A stretch of 64,000 bases of DNA. Source: Bdellovibrionales bacterium RIFCSPHIGHO2_01_FULL_40_29 (GTDB lineage: Bacteria; Bdellovibrionota; Bdellovibrionia; Bdellovibrionales; Bdellovibrionaceae). The DNA lies in assembly GCA_001771815.1 (NCBI GenBank), contig MEPU01000004.1, positions 744,001-808,000 of the forward strand, read 5' to 3'. Shown piece after piece: positions 26,664-37,834 of this stretch. Under the pieces are notes generated by a model. It was not told where the DNA came from, did not search any database, and saw only the letters and a list, made by a program, of their open reading frames with translations. Both the position numbers and the translations under genes were made by a program. Position 1 is the stretch's first letter; each line of letters opens with the position of its first letter.

Positions 26664-27381
26664 TATTTTTTATCACGTCCGTTAGTTCTTTTGGATTATC
26701 AAAAATTACCCGATGACCTGAATGAATCCTGCTGTATTCCAGCAGGATTTTTTTTGTTTTCAACTCTTCAGCAATTCCAATAAATTTGGGATCTTCTGAT
26801 CCCACAATCCAGGATACTTTATTTTGGTGTTTTAAAATAAACTCATGCATTTCATCTTGAGTCCCCAAGGACCAAAGCTTTAATGATTCGCTCAGCTTAA
26901 TCATGTCAAAATCTTTCTCGTAACGAGCTGGTTCCAAAGATGTTTTCAAAAAAACTGTTTGAGAATTCCATTTTTTTAAAAAGCTCTCCCAAGGTTCGTT
27001 TTTTACCAAATCAGCCCAGACAGCATCGCTTTTTTGTCGATCTTGGCGCAAATCGAAACTGGATAATCCAGGATGGGTTGAAATAAAAATGAAATGATCA
27101 AATAACCACGAATACTTTCTCAGAATATAAAGGCCTAATCGCCCACCAAGCGAGTAGCCAATAAATACTTTCTTGCGAGCCATATCCCCATCGGGTTTAT
27201 ACCTAGCTATTAATTCATCCACGTAAACTTCATAACTCTTAATGGGAGGGGATGTCTTATTAAACATCTCCGGAGTGAACCATTGGGCCTGCAAATGCTT
27301 TTGACATGCAAACCAATCCTGCGATTGTCCCAAAAATCCATGTAACGCAAATATTAAATCTTGTTGCAAGCGGCATCCCAT
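26653..27381 (-). CDS. menH: Alpha/beta-hydrolase, probable SHCHC synthase MenH
   Basis: Probable 2-succinyl-6-hydroxy-2,4-cyclohexadiene-1-carboxylate synthase of menaquinone synthesis. FALHGFLGQSQDW gives the oxyanion region, GYSLGGRLGL the nucleophile elbow with the MenH-typical SLGGR, and SGHRVIFDNP the catalytic His. It overlaps the end of menD by 28 nt, which supports menH over other hydrolases. Start is uncertain: ATG 27381 (used), TTG 27390 or TTG 27369, none with a clear ribosome-binding site. Confidence 0.82.
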   Translation of the reverse strand: MGCRLQQDLIFALHGFLGQSQDWFACQKHLQAQWFTPEMFNKTSPPIKSYEVYVDELIARYKPDGDMARKKVFIGYSLGGRLGLYILRKYSWLFDHFIFISTHPGLSSFDLRQDRQKSDAVWADLVKNEPWESFLKKWNSQTVFLKTSLEPARYEKDFDMIKLSESLKLWSLGTQDEMHEFILKHQNKVSWIVGSEDPKFIGIAEELKTKKILLEYSRIHSGHRVIFDNPKELTDVIKNIIA

Positions 27382-28895
27382 GCAGACCAAAAATGTTTTG
27401 TCTGCTCTGAATCAGGTTGAATTTCTATGATGCTAAAACTTTCAAGCAGACTCAGTCGATCAAAATCAGGGACAGTGGTGATTTTTAAATAATTCCATCC
27501 CCACATTTTTGCTAACATTTCAAATTCGACCCGATGAGAATTGATAAACCGGTCATTATTAAAAACGCGGTTAAAAATTTGACCACCAAAATTATTCATG
27601 ATCACCATATTTTTTTTACCAGAACCAGAAACCATACCTAGCGCGGCTAAATCATAAAGTGCCGTCAAATCACCAATAAAACACCAAGTCGGTTGTAACT
27701 GAGGCAACGCCCAACCCAAATACGTCGAAATTTGACCATCAATTCCATTGGCTCCACGATTTGCTGAAATGAGCTGCTCGCCACCACAGGCTCGAGCAAA
27801 TAAATCCCACTCGCGAATCGGCAAAGAATTTCCCAGATAGAGGGGATCCTTTTCAACTTTCTTGGACAATTCAAAGACCATCGCAGGCTCACTCAATGGA
27901 AATTTTTCAAATAACTCTGCTTTTAAATTTTCAAGTGACGGCAGTGTTTTCAAATTTGATTCTAATATCGGAGGCACCATCACATTTTCTAATTGCAACT
28001 GATACGTCTGTGATAATCTAGACAAGCCCGAAAAAGGCAAATTTGTAAAATTAATAACAGGCACATCTTTAAATTTAAATTCCAAATCTCGCCAGAAACG
28101 CAATGTGGGAATTCCACCAATTCGAATCACCGAATCACAGACATTGGTTTCAATCAACTTTTTCACCACGACATCACTGACATCAATCCGGTACGAATTC
28201 AAATCCGAATGACCGCGCAGCTGACTGAGAGCTTCTAGATACACAGGAGCTTTCAATTTTTTCAAAAATTCAATAACTTCATTTTTTTGCAACGGTGCTA
28301 ATTCAGAAACAATAACCAAGGGTTTTTTCAGTGTGCTTAAGACTGATTTCGGTGCTATTGGATTTGCATGAGAATGCAAAACACTCACTTTAAGGTTGGG
28401 CTTCAAACTTGAGTCATCAATTAATGGTTCATCAAAGCATACATTCAAGTGAATGGGTTTTTGCAAACGAGTTGTGTGCTCAGTTGCTGGCGGTTGCCCA
28501 TCCCAATCGAATGTTTGTTCAACATAGTGAGAGAACATTCCAACATGATTGATACTCTGGGGTGCACCAGAATTCCGATAGGCTTTGGGACGGTCTGCAG
28601 TCACCAGAATCAATGGCAGACCTTGATAAAAAGCCTCCACGGTGGCCGGTAACAGCTCTGCGACGGCTGTTCCAGATGTCGTCATCACGGCCACAGGTTT
28701 TCCTGTTTTTTTAATAAGTCCAAGTGCGAAAAAACTGGCACTGCGCTCTTCAAAGTAATGAATAGTATGAAACTTTTCAGTCTCTAGGTGAATCACCAAT
28801 GGAGCATTTCTGGCTCCAGCACACACGATGATATGTTCCGTTCCAACTTGCTTCAAAAATTCAAATACATTCTGGCACAGATCTTTGTTGGTCAT
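27354..28895 (-). CDS. menD: SEPHCHC synthase MenD
   Basis: TPP-dependent enzyme joining isochorismate and 2-oxoglutarate, the first committed menaquinone step. The N-terminal domain has VCAGARNAPLVIHLE and EERSASFFALGLIKKTGKPV with the TPP-activating Glu, TTSGTAVAELLPATVEA; the C-terminal domain has SANRGANGIDGQISTYLG and CFIGDLTALYDLAAL (GDxT metal site, with NNFGGQIFN later). 513 aa is standard. It overlaps menF by 4 nt and menH by 28 nt, so a tight operon. Confidence 0.95.
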   Translation of the reverse strand: MTNKDLCQNVFEFLKQVGTEHIIVCAGARNAPLVIHLETEKFHTIHYFEERSASFFALGLIKKTGKPVAVMTTSGTAVAELLPATVEAFYQGLPLILVTADRPKAYRNSGAPQSINHVGMFSHYVEQTFDWDGQPPATEHTTRLQKPIHLNVCFDEPLIDDSSLKPNLKVSVLHSHANPIAPKSVLSTLKKPLVIVSELAPLQKNEVIEFLKKLKAPVYLEALSQLRGHSDLNSYRIDVSDVVVKKLIETNVCDSVIRIGGIPTLRFWRDLEFKFKDVPVINFTNLPFSGLSRLSQTYQLQLENVMVPPILESNLKTLPSLENLKAELFEKFPLSEPAMVFELSKKVEKDPLYLGNSLPIREWDLFARACGGEQLISANRGANGIDGQISTYLGWALPQLQPTWCFIGDLTALYDLAALGMVSGSGKKNMVIMNNFGGQIFNRVFNNDRFINSHRVEFEMLAKMWGWNYLKITTVPDFDRLSLLESFSIIEIQPDSEQTKHFWSAWDAACNKI

Positions 28896-30004
28896 TGATT
28901 AAATCCCATCATGCGCTTCACTGAATTTCTTTTATTTTCAAGCTCGGCAAGTTCTGCTTCCAGATCACTTTCAGTAGTGACACCACATCCAGAAAATATT
29001 TTAATGCTGTCCTTAGAAAAATAAAAGTTTCGAATTGCAGCAACGACCTTTAAATTCGAACGATTCAAAAAACCAAACGGTGCCGCAAAGTTATTGCGAT
29101 TTTGCTGCTCTCCGATTCTTTGAAATTCTCGGTAGTGCTTTTCATGACGCGGAAAAATCCCCAACGCCGCCGTCGGCGGAAGTGAGTTTAAAATTTGAAG
29201 TGCTTGCTTCAACTCCACATCTAAAATAGCTATCTGAGTCAGCAAATGAGTTAAATGTTTCAATACTAAAACTTCAGTTGGGTTAACCTGCACAGATTCC
29301 AGATGCATCTTTTTTTCCAAAACGGATAAGATATCATTCACTACAATTTGGTGCTCTTGACGAATTTTTAGATCTTTCAATATAAGAGCTTCATTTCCTA
29401 GGGCAGCCGTTCCAGCCAATGCCATAGTGACTAACTTTTTGTTTACCTGATCCCACTGAGCAACCAGTTCTGGTGTTTGCCCTAGAAATCCGCTTCCATC
29501 AGACCATATCCCATAAGTTGTTCCATAATGATTTTCATTTAAAAGGGACAGTAAGGCTGCCGCCAAATTTTCAAATCCGAAAGACCCATTCGCCTGTTGA
29601 GAGATTATAGGAACAGTTTTGACCAAGTCGCCTGATGAAAATTGTTGAAAGCTCCACTGAAATTGCTCGATAAAATCTGATTGTGTACAGGGATCCCAAT
29701 TCCAATTGGTTTCTTTTGAAATTTCTGATTTCAATAATTCAATAAGTTCACTACGGTTAAGGACCATTTCCTGAATGCCCATAACAGCAGAAGCACTTTT
29801 GTGATCTATAAAATCCCAAAAATTTGGTTGAAATATGACGGTTTTTTCATCTGACAGTTGAGTTTCAACGGCATCTACAGGTGAAAATGGACCCCAGATC
29901 ACTTTAAATTGATCTAATGAGGTTTGCAGGATGGATCCTGCTTGTAAAAAGTTTGTAAAATTGGATTTTTTTATGTTACTTTGCACCTCCACGAAGACTA
30001 GCAA
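28892..30004 (-). CDS. menF: Isochorismate synthase MenF
   Basis: Chorismate-utilising enzyme; its position directly before menD identifies it as the menaquinone isochorismate synthase. Motifs: LAGTA near the middle, LKHLTHLL, LPPTAALGIFPR (Thr/Pro-rich active-site loop), FAAPFGF, and the C-terminal FSGCGVTTESDLEAELAELENK. 370 aa, with a reduced N-terminus. The start is uncertain: the frame opens at TTG 30004 and has no early ATG; GTG codons lie 4 and 6 codons later, next to GGAGGTG. Confidence 0.92.
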   Translation of the reverse strand: MLVFVEVQSNIKKSNFTNFLQAGSILQTSLDQFKVIWGPFSPVDAVETQLSDEKTVIFQPNFWDFIDHKSASAVMGIQEMVLNRSELIELLKSEISKETNWNWDPCTQSDFIEQFQWSFQQFSSGDLVKTVPIISQQANGSFGFENLAAALLSLLNENHYGTTYGIWSDGSGFLGQTPELVAQWDQVNKKLVTMALAGTAALGNEALILKDLKIRQEHQIVVNDILSVLEKKMHLESVQVNPTEVLVLKHLTHLLTQIAILDVELKQALQILNSLPPTAALGIFPRHEKHYREFQRIGEQQNRNNFAAPFGFLNRSNLKVVAAIRNFYFSKDSIKIFSGCGVTTESDLEAELAELENKRNSVKRMMGFNQ

Positions 30005-30051: not shown

Positions 30052-30831
30052 ATGATTGTTCAAGTCGGAAATGTGAAAATTGGTGGACCTCAATTTACAG
30101 TGATCGCTGGCCCCTGTTCGATTGAGTCTGAAGGACAATTTCGCCAAACCTCTGAATCTGTAAAAAAATCTGGCGCGGCTCTGTTGCGCGGTGGAATTTG
30201 GAAAATGCGGACATCGCCAAAATCCTTTCAAGGCCTCGGACAAAGCGCTTTCGATTTTATCAAAAAAGTTAAAAATGAAACTGGCTTAGGCCTTGTTTCC
30301 GAAGTCACTGATATTCGTCAAATCGAAGAAATTTCTCCTTTTGTTGATGCCTTTCAAGTTGGTGCTCGCAATATGCATAACTACTCATTGCTCAAAGAAT
30401 TGGGTCATCAACCAAAACCTGTTCTGCTTAAACGAAATTTTTCAGCTTTTATCGATGAATGGCTTAAAGCAGCAGATTATGTCGCTCAGGGTGGAAATCA
30501 GAACGTTATTCTTTGTGAACGCGGGATTCGTACATTTGAAACAGCCACTCGAAATACCTTAGATCTGAATGCTGTTGTTTATGCTAAAAAGAATTCTCAC
30601 TTTCCTGTTGTTGTCGATCCGTCTCACGCTGTTGGAATCAGCGAGCTTGTTGCACCACTTTGTTTTGCAGCTGCGGCAGCTGGCGCTGATGGATTGATTG
30701 TCGAAGTTCACCCCGAACCTGCGAAAGCACTTTCTGATGGAGATCAAGCCCTCACGCTTGAGGGTTTTGATAAAATGATGAAACAACTTGAAAAAGTTCT
30801 CAATGCCTTTGATCGCACTCTTAAAATGTAG
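30052..30831 (+). CDS. aroF: DAHP synthase, type I-beta (AroF/KdsA-like)
   Basis: Condenses PEP and erythrose-4-phosphate, the first step to chorismate. 259 aa with the compact Bacillus/Thermotoga type fold: AGPCSIES, RGGIWKMRTSPKSFQG, QVGARNM, LLKRNFSAFIDEWL, CERGIRTFE, DPSHAVG and EVHPEPAKALSDG carry the phosphate and metal ligands. No fused chorismate mutase or ACT regulatory domain, so feedback control is not obvious. It is followed after 9 nt by menG. Confidence 0.93.
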   Translation: MIVQVGNVKIGGPQFTVIAGPCSIESEGQFRQTSESVKKSGAALLRGGIWKMRTSPKSFQGLGQSAFDFIKKVKNETGLGLVSEVTDIRQIEEISPFVDAFQVGARNMHNYSLLKELGHQPKPVLLKRNFSAFIDEWLKAADYVAQGGNQNVILCERGIRTFETATRNTLDLNAVVYAKKNSHFPVVVDPSHAVGISELVAPLCFAAAAAGADGLIVEVHPEPAKALSDGDQALTLEGFDKMMKQLEKVLNAFDRTLKM

Positions 30832-31554: not shown

Positions 31555-32586
31555 TTAAAAACGGCTCTCTATTTTATCTAAGCGTGTCCATAATAAATGA
31601 TCCGTCAAAACCAACCAAGCCATCGATTCAACCACAGGAACTGCGCGTGGTATAATGCAAGGATCATGACGCCCTTTTTTTGCAGTATCTTTGATAGAAG
31701 ATGTTGGCTTAAAGGCCACGCGGATAATAATTTCTTCACCCGTCGTGATTCCACCTCGAATTCCACCATATTTTGCAGAATGACTCTCTTTGTGAAACTC
31801 TTGACCAGCAATCTCTGATGCTGAAAAACCCTCGCCAATTTCAATGGCCGTCGCCGCACCAATACTCAACATAGCCTGGGCCAGATCAGCCTTTATTTTA
31901 TGAAAAACAGGCTGTCCCAATCCCGCTGGAACATTTTTAACTCGCAACTCAACCACTCCGCCAAAACTTTCGCCTTCAATTTTTGCTTGTTCTAGCATGG
32001 TGACGATTTCGTTATTTTTTAAAGATGGAAAACGCGTGGGATACGAATCAATATTTTGTTTCCAGACAGTGGCTAACTCTGCCGGTGTTAATTTGTAAGG
32101 TCCAATTTCAGAAGCAAAACCTTTGACTTGAATCTTTGCGCTCAATTGCTGAGCCACCATTTGCGCCACAGAACCAGCAACAACACGGCACAAAGTTTCG
32201 CGACCCGAGGAACGTCCGCCCCCCCGATAATCAACATGATCAAATTTTTCCTTCCACATATCATCAGCATGACCAATACGCGGACTATTTTTGATTTCCT
32301 GATAGTCCGCTGATTTTTGATCGGTATTTTCAACAACAATACAAATAGGTGTCCCCAAAGTTTTGTTCTCAAAAACCCCGCTCATAACGACGGGAATATC
32401 AGCTTCTTGACGTGATGTCGTGACAGAACTCTGTCCAGGTCGTCTGCGATCTAAATTTGCTTTTATCAAATCGAAGTCAAACTTAACTCCTGCGGGACAA
32501 CCATCAATAACCACTCCCAATGCTTTTCCGTGGCTTTCTCCGAAAGTGATGACTTTAAATAATGTTCCAAAAGAATTTGCGCTCAT
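31555..32586 (-). CDS. aroC: Chorismate synthase
   Basis: FMN-dependent lyase turning EPSP into chorismate, the last common step. FGTLFKVITFGESHG, DRRRPGQSSVTTSRQEAD and GGRSSGRET are the three classical signatures, and AVPVVESM closes the C-terminus. Start at 32586 from the SANSFG N-terminus; its ATG overlaps the stop of the aroK-aroD-aroE fusion (ATGA). Fourth gene of the aroB-aroA-aroKDE-aroC operon. Confidence 0.97.
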   Translation of the reverse strand: MSANSFGTLFKVITFGESHGKALGVVIDGCPAGVKFDFDLIKANLDRRRPGQSSVTTSRQEADIPVVMSGVFENKTLGTPICIVVENTDQKSADYQEIKNSPRIGHADDMWKEKFDHVDYRGGGRSSGRETLCRVVAGSVAQMVAQQLSAKIQVKGFASEIGPYKLTPAELATVWKQNIDSYPTRFPSLKNNEIVTMLEQAKIEGESFGGVVELRVKNVPAGLGQPVFHKIKADLAQAMLSIGAATAIEIGEGFSASEIAGQEFHKESHSAKYGGIRGGITTGEEIIIRVAFKPTSSIKDTAKKGRHDPCIIPRAVPVVESMAWLVLTDHLLWTRLDKIESRF

Positions 32587-34295
32587 TTTTGACTCCAATA
32601 CTTTTGCTGACTCATCGCTTGAGCATTAAACATACCTAACCCCGAGATATAGGAACACTTCTTTTTTTGAGCGTACTCTAAACCCATCGAATTTTCTCGA
32701 TAATTTAAATCCACGATAAGCCTTGGATTCCAATTTTCCGGAGGCCACTGAGTCTGCTCCGTCCGCGGAGTCGACCAAATAACGACATCCGGTTGAGTCT
32801 GATTCAACATTGGCGCTCGAGAAGAATAAAAGTGAGCCTGTGGAACTACTGATTTCATCATGGCCAACGTTCCACCACCACCCCAAACAGCAATGGAATC
32901 ATTTGGTTTAATCTCTGCTAAATGAATTAAACTTTTAAAACCCTCTGCATCTGTGTTCTCAGCGAAAATCTGAGGTCCTTCTATTAATAAAGTATTTGCA
33001 GTCTGAAACTGTTGAGACAAATTGGTCGACTGAGTGGATTTGTAAAAAGCATTTTTTTTCAACGGTGACGTCACGGCAACATATTTTAAACCAAGTGCAA
33101 TCAACCAATCAAAAGCTTCGTTAAAATCTGCTTCAGACAATTGAATGGCTGTAAAAAATGTCTTTTTTTCTCGAAAAAATTCACGGTGCTTTTCTGGACT
33201 GCGAGAAAATAAAACCGGATTCCCCACAACTGCTGCAAAAGTGTTGGGCTTACTTGCGGGCAAAAGCAGCCACTGGTAAATAGAAGGCTGATCTGCAATA
33301 TCCGTTTGATTGCGCACAAAATTAATTTTTTGAAAATACTTTGATAGCTGGCGAAACCAAACCCATTTGCCAGTTGCAGAGCGTGGCAAAAAACTTCTCT
33401 GCTGGGGTTGTTGCTGCTGCCACAAATGGCCTTTCAACAGATCCGCAAAGTTTTCCACAACCGGAGACAGCTTAATGTGTGTTTTCGTACCAAGTTTTTC
33501 TATCATCGCTATAGCCACATCTAGTGATTCTTCGTGACATGAAATAACATTTTGTGGGTTTTCCAAAAAATCTGCAGGACGACTCGGTATATGAATATCA
33601 AAATCTGTTCGTACGGATACTGTCGGAACCTCTTCTGTTCGAATCGAAAGCAGCCATTGAAACTGAGGATCTTGATGAATAATCTCTGAAATAAGTCGCA
33701 TTGGAATCAAATCCGATCGCAATTCAATCTGTAAAAATACTTTTTTAATCCGAGACAACTGAGGAATATCATTTGCTGTTAACGTATAAATGCCATCAGA
33801 AATAAAAAAATTATTCTGCAAAATTTGCTGTTCTATCTCATTCGAAGTTTCGACTCCCTCTGGCAAATGATAAATAAAATCAGAATACTGCAAAAATTGT
33901 TTCTGACGAATGCTATATTTTTGCTGGTATTCGGCTTGTGGATCAACGTCTGCATTCAATCGAGGTCGGTTCAAAAAAATGCGCCCATCCTGATCCGTCA
34001 CTCGAGAAACAAATATTTTCTGAATGTCTTTCGGCAACTGACCGATATCAAAACCCGCTCCAAGACTAATCACAAAATTTGGGTGGGCTCGAAAAAGTTT
34101 TTCGACAGTTTCTAATTCCTGTTTACGAAAATAAGCTTCCCCATAGTTTTTAAAAACATCATCAATAGACAGTCCTACAGACTTTTCTACTTCTAAATCC
34201 AAATCGAAATGAAGAACATCCGGGAAATACTCTTGATGTCTTTTTAATAATGTTGATTTTCCAACACCTCGATGTCCAATCAGAACTCGCTTCAT
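32583..34295 (-). CDS. Trifunctional shikimate kinase - DHQ dehydratase-like - shikimate dehydrogenase fusion
   Basis: One 570-aa chain with three shikimate-pathway domains. Residues 1-165: shikimate kinase (P-loop GHRGVGKST 7-15, D31/D33, FRKQE 56-60, SLGAGF, RPRL lid 110-113). Residues about 183-343: type I 3-dehydroquinate dehydratase-like, with E191-x-R193, SIRT 218-221, H254, Schiff-base candidate K275 and a late Q336; at about 160 residues it is shorter than the usual 220-250. Residues 350-570: shikimate dehydrogenase (S364/S366 in GNPVLFSRSP, K413, D449 in ENTD, GGGG 472-475, Q559). Kinase-dehydratase-dehydrogenase is the domain order of the C-terminal half of eukaryotic AROM. ATGA overlaps join it to aroA upstream and aroC downstream. 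Confidence 0.88.
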   Translation of the reverse strand: MKRVLIGHRGVGKSTLLKRHQEYFPDVLHFDLDLEVEKSVGLSIDDVFKNYGEAYFRKQELETVEKLFRAHPNFVISLGAGFDIGQLPKDIQKIFVSRVTDQDGRIFLNRPRLNADVDPQAEYQQKYSIRQKQFLQYSDFIYHLPEGVETSNEIEQQILQNNFFISDGIYTLTANDIPQLSRIKKVFLQIELRSDLIPMRLISEIIHQDPQFQWLLSIRTEEVPTVSVRTDFDIHIPSRPADFLENPQNVISCHEESLDVAIAMIEKLGTKTHIKLSPVVENFADLLKGHLWQQQQPQQRSFLPRSATGKWVWFRQLSKYFQKINFVRNQTDIADQPSIYQWLLLPASKPNTFAAVVGNPVLFSRSPEKHREFFREKKTFFTAIQLSEADFNEAFDWLIALGLKYVAVTSPLKKNAFYKSTQSTNLSQQFQTANTLLIEGPQIFAENTDAEGFKSLIHLAEIKPNDSIAVWGGGGTLAMMKSVVPQAHFYSSRAPMLNQTQPDVVIWSTPRTEQTQWPPENWNPRLIVDLNYRENSMGLEYAQKKKCSYISGLGMFNAQAMSQQKYWSQK

Positions 34296-35479
34296 ATACT
34301 TAATCCCACATCCTGCCAAAAATGAGGATAACTTTTATGAACGACTTCAGGATTCAAAATTGTCAGATTGAATCCAGCTAATTTTAATAAACCAGCCGCC
34401 ATGGCCATGCGGTGATCTTGATCCGGATTAAATAAAACGCTCTGTGTTCGATCTTTTGTCGACGAGCTTCCATAAATAGCCAATCCATCATTTATAATTT
34501 CAGTTTTAAATCCGCAAAGACTTAATAACTCGATCGTCTTAGCCATACGATCGGATTCTTTAGATTTCAAATGTTGAGCCCCATACAAATAGGATCTCCC
34601 TTGACCCAAACCACACAGCACGGCCAGCACTGGAAATAAATCTGGCGTCGCATTCAAATTTTCTTTGCAACTGCTCCATGATTCACACTGTGAAACCGTC
34701 AAAGTGCTCTGCTGAATCAAATAGGGAATTTTCATGCGCTTAAAAATATTTAAAAACTCGCGATCCGGTTGCAAAGAATCATTGGGCCAATTTTGAATCT
34801 CGGCGTGGCCAGCAATGACGGCGGCTGCGGACAAAGAAAATGCCGAACTCATATCCATTTCAGCAATAAAGGGTTGTGCTGATACAGGTTGCTTTGATTT
34901 TTCTATATGAAGCTTTAGATAATTTTCATCTTGGGTTTGTTTGATATTCATTTGCAGACGTTTGACCATTTCAATGGTCATTTCTAGATAATCTTCTGAA
35001 ACAATTGGTTTTTGAATTTGAAGATCTAATGATTCCGGCAAATTCCAGGCATTCAGAATCAATCCAGAGACAAACTGACTCGAGACATTCCCCTGACAAA
35101 AAATTCGAGAGGGAATCTTCCACCCTTCAGAACGCAATTGAACACGCTGAGATTCAAAAATAATATCGACACCCAATTGTTCAAGAATACTTTTCAACTC
35201 CAATTGCGGCCGTTCCAATAATCGCGGACTGGCATTCAGAATCCATGTTCCAGGATAACGCGAAACCAAAAGGGAAAAAAAACGAAATGTTGTTCCGCCC
35301 TCTCCCAAGTGAAATTCTTTTTTACCTTGTTGTAATTGTGCCAGAGCCAGTTGCGTATTTTTAACGTCTTCAGATTCTGATTGGCCAGACACTTGAAGTA
35401 ATGGATTGTAATGCTGAATAATCAAGGCTCGATTCAGCCATGATTTTGAACTTTCAATAAGCCCCTTAAATAAAAACAC
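34292..35479 (-). CDS. aroA: EPSP synthase (3-phosphoshikimate 1-carboxyvinyltransferase)
   Basis: Adds enolpyruvate to shikimate-3-phosphate. SSKSWLNRALI matches the KS-x-x-NRALI substrate site, LGEGGTTFRFF the GNAGTTMR motif (divergent at the first residues), DMSSAFSLSAAAV the middle motif, and LKSKESDRMAKTIELL with DHRMAMAAGLL the C-terminal signatures. 395 aa is slightly short. GTG start that overlaps the aroB stop by 1 nt (TAGTG); its own stop overlaps the next ATG (ATGA). Confidence 0.92.
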   Translation of the reverse strand: MFLFKGLIESSKSWLNRALIIQHYNPLLQVSGQSESEDVKNTQLALAQLQQGKKEFHLGEGGTTFRFFSLLVSRYPGTWILNASPRLLERPQLELKSILEQLGVDIIFESQRVQLRSEGWKIPSRIFCQGNVSSQFVSGLILNAWNLPESLDLQIQKPIVSEDYLEMTIEMVKRLQMNIKQTQDENYLKLHIEKSKQPVSAQPFIAEMDMSSAFSLSAAAVIAGHAEIQNWPNDSLQPDREFLNIFKRMKIPYLIQQSTLTVSQCESWSSCKENLNATPDLFPVLAVLCGLGQGRSYLYGAQHLKSKESDRMAKTIELLSLCGFKTEIINDGLAIYGSSSTKDRTQSVLFNPDQDHRMAMAAGLLKLAGFNLTILNPEVVHKSYPHFWQDVGLSI

Positions 35480-36483
35480 TAGTATTCCTGCTTTTGTCGG
35501 CGCATTTCATTAATTAAAGAATCTAGAGATACTTTTCGACGAAGTACCTTTCCAATTTTTGATATAAAAATAAAATCAATTTCCGTAGAGGAAACTAGTT
35601 TTTTATCTTTTGATAATAAATGACGAACTTCCGTAAATGAAATTTTTCCCAAGAGCGTTTGCAAATCATTATCACCACGCGAATGAACAGCTTTCCAAAT
35701 TTGAACAAAGTCTGGCTGCTTCAACAAACCCAGCTGGAAACTCCAGCGAGCTGAAAATAAAATTCCTAATTTGACGGCTTCACCATGAGGTAACTGAAAC
35801 AAACTTTCAAGAACGTGCCCCACGGTATGTCCCAAATTAAGTACGCGGCGAGCGCCACGTTTTTCATCTGGATCCATTTTAACAATTTTCATTTTTGCCG
35901 AAATCAACTCTGGTAAACTATCAAACAGTGGTGATTTGACTTTGTTTTGCAAAATCTTTGGTGTGTTGATAATTGCCATTTTAAGAACTTCCCCAAAAGC
36001 CTCGTCTTCGCGCTCTATGGGTTGAGATTCCAGAAGCGTTCGAACAAGGTAAACCTGAGATGCCGGGTAAATAGTACCGATTTGATTTTTAACGGCATTG
36101 AAGTTCAATCCGTTCTTTCCTCCATGGGCTGAGTCGATGGCGGCAAGCCAGGTCGAAGGTATTTGCACAAAATTTCGACCCCGTAAAAAAATGCTCGCCA
36201 AAAACCCAACAAAATCACCCACACTGCCACCGCCAACTGCAATGAATGTCAATTCAGTTGTCTGAGGTAAGCCTTTTGAAACCATAATCTTTAAGATCTT
36301 TTGCAACGAGTCCAGAGTTTTTAAAGACTCTCCAGCTGTTAGAGGGAAAGCATAAGAAAAAGCCCGACGCCACTGCTTAAACGAAGGTTGACGATCTAAG
36401 ATCCGATCATAAAACAGAACAGAGTTCGCTGGAAACTGGCTTCGCTGGGGTAATTTTGGCGCATAAACAATTTCGGTTTTCAC
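35479..36483 (-). CDS. aroB: 3-Dehydroquinate synthase
   Basis: NAD- and metal-dependent cyclase making 3-dehydroquinate, second shikimate step. VGGGSVGDFVGFLASIFLRG, DSAHGGKNGLN (nucleotide/substrate site), GEVLKMA, LNLGHTVGHVLE and HGEAVKLGI carry the Lys, Glu and His ligands. 334 aa is at the short end. GTG start at 36483. First gene of the four-gene aro operon. Confidence 0.95.
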   Translation of the reverse strand: MKTEIVYAPKLPQRSQFPANSVLFYDRILDRQPSFKQWRRAFSYAFPLTAGESLKTLDSLQKILKIMVSKGLPQTTELTFIAVGGGSVGDFVGFLASIFLRGRNFVQIPSTWLAAIDSAHGGKNGLNFNAVKNQIGTIYPASQVYLVRTLLESQPIEREDEAFGEVLKMAIINTPKILQNKVKSPLFDSLPELISAKMKIVKMDPDEKRGARRVLNLGHTVGHVLESLFQLPHGEAVKLGILFSARWSFQLGLLKQPDFVQIWKAVHSRGDNDLQTLLGKISFTEVRHLLSKDKKLVSSTEIDFIFISKIGKVLRRKVSLDSLINEMRRQKQEY

Positions 36484-36607: not shown

Positions 36608-37834
36608 ATGCAAAAAATTAAAGTTGCTAATCCCGTTGTTGAGCTTGATGGCGACGAAATGACTCGCATCATTTGGAAATTTATCAAAGATAAATTAATT
36701 CTTCCTTACTTAGAACTTGATATTAAGTACTATGACTTGGGAATGGAATACCGCGATCAGACCAATGATCAAGTAACCGTAGATGCTGCTGAGGCCATCA
36801 AAAAGTATAATGTTGGAATCAAGTGCGCGACCATCACGCCCGATGAAGCCCGCGTTAAAGAATTCAATTTGAAGCAAATGTGGAAATCTCCAAATGGCAC
36901 AATTCGAAATATTTTAGATGGCACCGTTTTTCGCGAGCCCATCATTTGTAAAAATGTTCCACGCTTGGTTCCGAACTGGACCGCTCCCATTTGCATCGGT
37001 CGCCACGCTTTCGGCGATCAGTACCGTGCCACTGATTTCGTAACCAAAGGCGAGGGTAAATTAACAATCACTTTCGAAGGTAAGAATGGCGAAAAAATTT
37101 CTCATGAAGTTTATAATTTCAAAGGTGATGGCGTTGCCATGGCCATGTACAACACGGATGAATCCATCACTGGCTTTGCACGCTCATGCTTCAATACCGC
37201 TCTGACAAAAAAATGGCCTTTGTATTTATCAACAAAAAATACAATTTTAAAAAAATATGATGGTCGCTTCAAAGACATCTTTGAAGATATCTACCAAAAA
37301 GAATTTAAAACTAAATATGAAGCAGCTGGAATCACCTATGAACATCGATTGATCGATGACATGGTTGCCAGTGCATTAAAATGGAACGGAAACTTTGTAT
37401 GGGCCTGTAAAAATTATGACGGCGATGTTCAATCTGATACCGTTGCACAAGGATTTGGATCTTTAGGGCTGATGACTTCAGTACTTGTGACTCCGGATGG
37501 AAAAACAATGGAATCCGAGGCCGCTCATGGAACAGTCACTCGTCATTACCGTGAACACCAAAAAGGAAAACCCACGTCAACCAACCCTATTGCATCTATT
37601 TTTGCATGGACTCGTGGTTTAGAGCACCGAGCAAAATTGGATAACAATCCAGCTCTTGCAAAATTTTGTAAAACACTAGAACAAGTTTGCGTCGAAACTG
37701 TTGAATCTGGAAAAATGACAAAAGACTTAGCCGTGTGTATTTATGGCGACAAGGTCAACTCAACTCAGTATTTAAATACTGAGCCATTCTTGGATGCTAT
37801 TGATCAAAATTTAAAAAAAGCCATGGTTCTTTAG
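36608..37834 (+). CDS. icd: NADP-dependent isocitrate dehydrogenase, eukaryotic-type dimer
   Basis: TCA-cycle enzyme, isocitrate to 2-oxoglutarate. The N-terminus ([21 protein letters not shown]) and [20 protein letters not shown] belong to the type II (mitochondrial/cytosolic-like) homodimeric IDH, not E. coli Icd. IDDMVA with catalytic Asp and [14 protein letters not shown] are typical. 408 aa is right. 2-Oxoglutarate is also the MenD co-substrate. A hairpin follows the stop. Confidence 0.95.

Follow-up and report, generated by a model that had tools for sequence, protein, structure and literature searches.

How does Bdellovibrionales bacterium RIFCSPHIGHO2_01_FULL_40_29 dehydrate 3-dehydroquinate, the third step of the shikimate pathway? 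The question is raised by one gene in a 64,000-nucleotide stretch of its contig MEPU01000004.1 (positions 744,001 to 808,000 of the forward strand; hereafter the window, in whose numbering coordinates are given). This open reading frame, here called aroKDE (32583..34295, minus strand), runs from an ATG at 34295 to a stop codon whose last base is 32583, and translates to 570 amino acids (aa). An earlier reading, made from the sequence alone (the sequence-only reading), had taken it for a trifunctional AroK-AroD-AroE whose shortened middle domain could be either a minimal working dehydratase or a degenerate linker, with the reaction left to a separate AroQ. We conclude that the middle domain is very probably a working, trimmed type I (Schiff-base) 3-dehydroquinate dehydratase (DHQD), and the only one in the genome. 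This conclusion rests on computation: homology, predicted fold, active-site conservation, and the absence of another known dehydratase. Its chemistry would be that of AroD, by analogy, and its activity is suggested by the conserved site together with the absence of any alternative. As a small middle-domain dehydratase, it appears to have been previously unrecognised.

The three domains follow one another on the minus strand: a shikimate kinase (SK) domain in residues 1-160 (33816..34295), the middle domain in residues 162-349 (33249..33812), and a shikimate dehydrogenase (SDH) domain in residues 351-570 (32586..33245). A Pfam scan of the whole protein finds SKI (1.6e-12, residues 9-82) and Shikimate_dh_N (4e-7, residues 356-436), with no family matched between residues 82 and 356; an NCBIfam scan adds the aroE model TIGR00507 (2.2e-25) and several shikimate kinase models. 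The best PDB sequence matches of the SK domain are monofunctional shikimate kinases, and the SDH domain of the model described below superposes on E. coli AroE (1nyt) with a VIA Z of 23.4 over 219 residues. D33, R57, R110, and R130 of the SK domain, which we take to be its substrate residues, are found in all 58 sequences of the larger alignment of relatives, as are K413 and D449 of the SDH domain, presumably its catalytic lysine and aspartate. The SK domain also has the P-loop expected of AroK. By fold or family and by these residues, the two outer domains are a shikimate kinase and a shikimate dehydrogenase, so that these, with the dehydroquinase-type domain between them, make up the trifunctional frame originally proposed. 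The SDH domain is compact as well: its 219 aligned residues compare with 271 in E. coli AroE, and Pfam sees its N-terminal half only.

Relatives were collected in two ways. A whole-genome search with the AroKDE protein matched 52 of 59 genomes, the source genome included, and showed relatives of full length throughout the order; one of the 52, G048, matched solely through its separate shikimate kinase. Sixty-one loci were also taken from named genome records, mostly titled Bdellovibrio, Bdellovibrionales, or similar, and including Bdellovibrio bacteriovorus strain kdesi (L096). Two overlapping alignments were used to count residues: one of 50 sequences, and one of 58, drawn from the named loci and including the window protein, from which L132 (unknown residues in the frame) and the partial L142, L145, and L130 were left out.

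The middle domain becomes recognisable when relatives are considered together. Profiles were built from an alignment of 44 middle domains (A1) and from one of 58 sequences (A7). Against all PDB sequences, the top two matches of A1 are dehydroquinate dehydratases (2ocz, 9.8e-6, and 3l9c, 0.012), with a third, 2egz, at 0.36; with A7, dehydroquinases occupy the first five places, 2ocz reaching 2.2e-4. In a profile-profile comparison (hhalign) with 12 canonical AroD sequences, the middle-domain alignment scored a probability of 92.7 and an E-value of 4.2e-7 (3.6e-6 when repeated with A7). This comparison pairs E191, R193, D195, R219, and D231 with E46, R48, D50, R82, and D114 of AroD (numbered here as in the E. 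coli sequence), and S252, H254, K275, R315, and Q336 with S141, H143, K170, R213, and Q236, bearing out the type I pattern proposed from sequence inspection. The curated cut-off of PF01487, the canonical AroD family, was passed by none of the 59 relatives, and matches to it at E-values up to 1 were discarded as short, scattered, sub-cut-off pieces. These profiles place the middle domain in the type I dehydroquinase family, as a trimmed and strongly divergent branch lying outside Pfam's present boundary.

The residues named in the sequence-only reading (E191-x-R193, S217-I-R219-T, H254, K275, R315, and Q336) all stand at those positions in the translation. The codons of the seven active-site counterparts, with their occurrence in the 50- and 58-sequence alignments, are E191 (33723..33725; 50/50 and 57/58), R193 (33717..33719; 49/50 and 56/58), R219 (33639..33641; 50/50 and 57/58), H254 (33534..33536), K275, corresponding to the Schiff-base lysine (33471..33473), R315 (33351..33353), and Q336 (33288..33290), all on the minus strand; the last four are invariant (50/50 and 58/58). 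Counting D195 and S252 as well, 49 of 50 and 56 of 58 sequences have the complete set of nine. Mean column identity in the middle domain is just 31% (44 sequences) or 25% (58 sequences), so joint conservation of nine residues goes beyond chance. The arginine equivalent to R213 had been described as having no clear counterpart, with R315 as a candidate. The candidate stands and the doubt does not: by alignment, R315 is the "missing" arginine, because hhalign pairs it with R213 and all seven counterparts are kept together.

The predicted structure agrees with this assignment. AlphaFold2 modelled the whole chain with a mean predicted local distance difference test score (pLDDT) of 95.9 and a predicted template modelling score (pTM) of 0.93, and the middle domain alone with values of 96.1 and 0.90. 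In the model, the domain is an eight-stranded alpha/beta barrel of dehydroquinase topology, with strands at 165-172, 187-193, 213-218, 229-233, 250-253, 273-276, and 300-302, and a short eighth near 326. Helices follow strands 1, 2, 5, 6, 7, and 8; there is none between strands 213-218 and 229-233, where alpha3 would be, and all that remains of alpha4 is a three-residue turn (243-245) linking strands 229-233 and 250-253. Among the best 50 structural matches listed by VIA-align, ranks 1-39 are without exception chains containing a type I dehydroquinase domain (Z 12.1-15.6; 2egz, Z 15.6, 2.9 Å over 180 residues; 1qfe, Z 14.3, 3.2 Å over 181), with Sul3 next as Z falls to 10.8. The comparison with 1qfe suggested in the sequence-only reading, which could have returned something other than a TIM barrel, thus favours a dehydroquinase-type one.

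The place of the trimming can be located by the spacing of these conserved positions. The span equivalent to E46-Q236 is 145 residues in the window protein and 170-191 in all 12 canonical AroD sequences. Along the anchors E46-R82-D114-H143-K170-R213-Q236, the successive gaps are 36, 32, 29, 27, 43, and 23 residues in E. coli AroD, 28, 12, 23, 21, 40, and 21 in the window protein, and 28, 19, 19, 23, 40, and 22 as medians over the 58 sequences. The shortening is mainly between R82 and H143, the region of helices alpha3 and alpha4. H254 does follow E191 by 63 residues, as first noticed, compared with 97 from E46 to H143 in the E. coli-type enzyme; the domain is shortened as claimed, though to about 188 residues (roughly 162-349) rather than the 160 or so then estimated. 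In the model, it is without the full set of outer helices of the classical barrel, a feature usual in members of the family and one not needed for the chemistry. With the barrel kept, alpha3 absent, and alpha4 a turn, the domain would have shed outer scaffold and retained its active site. Small canonical enzymes also occur in the phylum: L060-L063, of another family (f12), encode the shortest canonical AroD proteins (208-214 aa), which have no position for E86 of AroD in the alignment.

Another dehydratase was looked for in the source genome and across the phylum. In the source genome (99.99% complete), neither PF01220 (AroQ) nor PF01487 was matched, which answers the earlier suggestion that the genome be searched for a separate aroD or aroQ. 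A second, weak match there (G000:C4:732494-732877, E 3.4e-4) was considered as another AroD and rejected, as the stretch matches Ala_racemase_N. A sample of 290 genomes of the phylum was then profile-searched for the middle domain, AroQ, canonical AroD, and chorismate synthase (aroC), giving 98, 117, 5, and 221 genomes, respectively; one of the 98, G074, was dropped since its match (1.6e-4, in a 212-aa frame) is a canonical AroD. The remaining 97 domain-bearing genomes all lack both AroQ and canonical AroD, and aroC is present in 93 of them, while AroQ or AroD is present in 118 of the 128 aroC-bearing genomes without the middle domain (Fisher p 2e-51 for the exclusion, a statistic that ignores shared ancestry). 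Across most of the order, and in scattered genomes of the rest of the phylum, it is the fusion that takes the place of AroQ and AroD.

By analogy with AroD, the chain would carry out three consecutive steps: dehydration of 3-dehydroquinate by the middle domain, reduction of 3-dehydroshikimate by the C-terminal domain, and phosphorylation of shikimate by the N-terminal one. In the dehydration, an imine would form between K275 and the C3 carbonyl of dehydroquinate; H254, held in place by E191, would act as base and then as acid in a syn elimination of water; and R193, R219, R315, and Q336 would bind the substrate, these last roles being those of the corresponding residues in known dehydroquinases. 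The Schiff-base role of K170 and the dual role of a mobile H143 are described in passages of PMC4114755.

The gene lies in an operon-like arrangement. In minus-strand order, aroB (3-dehydroquinate synthase; 35479..36483, PF01761 2.2e-29), aroA (5-enolpyruvylshikimate-3-phosphate, EPSP, synthase; 34292..35479, PF00275 3.7e-47), aroKDE, and aroC (chorismate synthase; 31555..32586, PF01264 1.8e-108) overlap their neighbours by 1-4 bases, as TAGTG between aroB and aroA and as ATGA on both sides of aroKDE (four bases in the case of aroA). Adjoining them are genes for the first step of the pathway, 3-deoxy-D-arabino-heptulosonate 7-phosphate synthase (30052..30831, plus strand, PF00793 1.9e-71), and for use of its product: a MenF-like isochorismate synthase, which consumes chorismate (28892..30004, minus strand; TIGR00543 8.3e-40, below the curated cut-off), menD (27354..28895, minus strand; TIGR00173 4.3e-81, over the cut-off), and menG. 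On the other side (36608-37834) is an NADP-dependent isocitrate dehydrogenase of the type modelled as eukaryotic (TIGR00127 4.5e-229). Of the 61 named loci, 49 have aroA immediately upstream, 42 have aroB as the next gene beyond it, and 42 have aroC immediately downstream; the full order B-A-KDE-C is found in 32, some contigs ending too early to tell. L029 and L136 have the fusion gene with no aroB, aroA, or aroC in the flanks examined.

Two chorismate-binding enzymes only were found in the source genome: one is MenF-like, and the other is PabB-like and encoded next to a PabA-like gene. A search there for prephenate dehydratase found none; the shikimate pathway therefore probably serves menaquinone and folate. 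The PabA-like and PabB-like genes (G000:C6 near 249901, L146) overlap in a row with a third small gene.

Several observations weigh against a working dehydratase. Scanned singly against Pfam, the window's own middle domain matches no family, and PF01487 is reached, weakly, by just 4 of 44 and 6 of 58 members of the two alignments (best 0.0013). Foldseek, given the domain model, returned nothing under 1e-3, the best match being the archaeal dehydroquinase 2ox1 at 4e-3, and the barrel itself is a prediction. Within the site, the window protein has H235 at the position of E116, where 45 of 58 relatives have E, and D332 at that of S232, where 37 of 58 have S. A conserved counterpart of E86, looked for at 221/222 in the 58-sequence alignment, was not found, a loss tempered by the absence of E86 from 6 of the 12 canonical AroD sequences as well. 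Key residues are partly absent from two of the 58 relatives, L097 and L139, which are possibly misaligned. Finally, in ten aroC-bearing genomes (G084, G090, G119, G149, G165, G234, G278, G293, G295, and G298; several are incomplete assemblies), AroQ, AroD, and the fusion domain all fall below the thresholds used, so that an unrecognised enzyme may exist somewhere in the phylum.

The shortening, the lost E116 and S232 counterparts, and the missing Pfam match would suit a domain derived from AroD and now inactive, a linker with AroQ or AroD doing the step elsewhere. This half of the sequence-only alternative is contradicted by the absence of both enzymes from the source genome and from all 97 domain-bearing genomes, and in a linker, seven catalytic residues would hardly be expected to survive together in 56 of 58 sequences at such low overall identity; we regard it as very improbable. 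It is the minimal-enzyme half that the dehydroquinase-type predicted fold and the lack of AroQ and AroD support. The weak Foldseek values and the ten genomes without a recognised dehydratase could instead point to a related barrel with another reaction, the third step being taken by a non-homologous dehydratase of unrecognised kind. Against this stand the retained dehydroquinase active-site set, in a domain flanked by the enzymes of adjacent steps (kinase and dehydrogenase), and the dehydroquinases that fill the leading structural ranks; this explanation is very improbable. It might also be argued that the pathway is an idle remnant in these predators, and a dehydratase not needed: prephenate dehydratase was not found, chorismate-binding enzymes are few, and passages of a published metabolic model of B. 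bacteriovorus (PMC7529429) list Phe and Trp as requirements, i.e., auxotrophies. Yet chorismate users are present, both beside the operon (menF, menD, menG) and as the PabA/PabB-like pair, aroC is kept in nearly all domain-bearing genomes, and active-site residues are conserved in all three domains, making an idle pathway hardly credible. A working dehydratase in AroKDE would fill the apparent hole that family-based annotation leaves in the shikimate pathway of Bdellovibrio-type predators, and is relevant to metabolic models in which aromatic auxotrophies are listed.

Fusion has gone further in some relatives. Seven genomes, from three families of the phylum, encode AroA-AroK-AroD-AroE as a single-frame chain of about 970-1130 aa: five by Pfam (L101:3825-6728, L140:3627-7013, L138:3714-7067, L054:2407-5538, and L064:3754-6804) and two more by phmmer (L016 and L055). 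The 1073-aa frames of L047 and L115 were rejected as AroA fusions, as phmmer places AroA outside them. In L132 and L073, which represent the same assembly region, the AroKDE frame (777 aa) continues into AroC sequence; an AroK-D-E-C fusion is possible there, although some residues of the frame are unknown and its end is close to a contig edge.

No account of an AroKDE fusion, and nothing relevant on barrels with missing helices, was found in the Creative Commons-licensed PMC literature. Fusions of two functions are reported from several prokaryotes, as in the portions of PMC10792529 that describe a Clostridial DHQD-SK (CASP15 target T1180); like AroKDE this is a prokaryotic fusion of DHQD and SK, but as described there it is bifunctional and without SDH. 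A survey that used seeds at E 1e-10 and recovered 459 dehydroquinases in 3180 genomes (PMC4314829) makes no mention of Bdellovibrio in its main text. Compared with type I AroD itself (PF01487; 1qfe, 2egz, 2ocz), the window domain shares profile homology, barrel order, and active-site residues, while differing in its shorter span, its modelled lack of alpha3 and of a full alpha4, its position below the Pfam cut-off, and its fusion on both sides. As a case from nature, it would show how much of an alpha/beta barrel can be removed without loss of the active site.

The plant DHQD-SDH enzymes (2o7s, 2gpt) have the same order of these two domains; they have no kinase, their DHQD is full-size, and identity is 16%. 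The middle and C-terminal domains of the model nevertheless superpose on 2o7s over 393 residues at 3.7 Å (Z 21.7), whereas superposition of the whole model on fungal and protist AROM (6hqv, 7tbv, 7u5s) leaves a root-mean-square deviation of 18-19 Å, so the predicted placement of these two domains is plant-like.

AROM, for which excerpts of PMC6851490 give the order DHQ synthase-EPSP synthase-SK-DHQD-SDH, is the closest parallel in layout: it too has SK-DHQD-SDH in one chain, its order is that of the operon aroB-aroA-aroKDE, and the four-enzyme chains of the seven genomes are AROM without its first domain. In the window, aroB and aroA are separate genes, and the window's AroB, AroA, SK, and SDH all score monofunctional chains above AROM (SDH, 89.3 bits to TIGR00507 vs. 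27.3 to TIGR01809). A phmmer search with the whole chain does rank AROM first, explained by the summing of two matched domains. Shared descent, suggested by the common B-A-K-D-E order, was rejected since the four alignable enzymes are nearer to monofunctional chains; on these sequence comparisons, convergence is the better reading. A fuller version, to which we would give an even chance, is that Bdellovibrionota evolved an AROM-like assembly line independently of fungi, that the helix-trimmed barrel is active because neighbouring domains cover its bared strands, and that some families then absorbed AroA into a four-enzyme chain. The phylum would then offer a bacterial parallel to AROM, with both trifunctional and tetrafunctional stages available for comparison.

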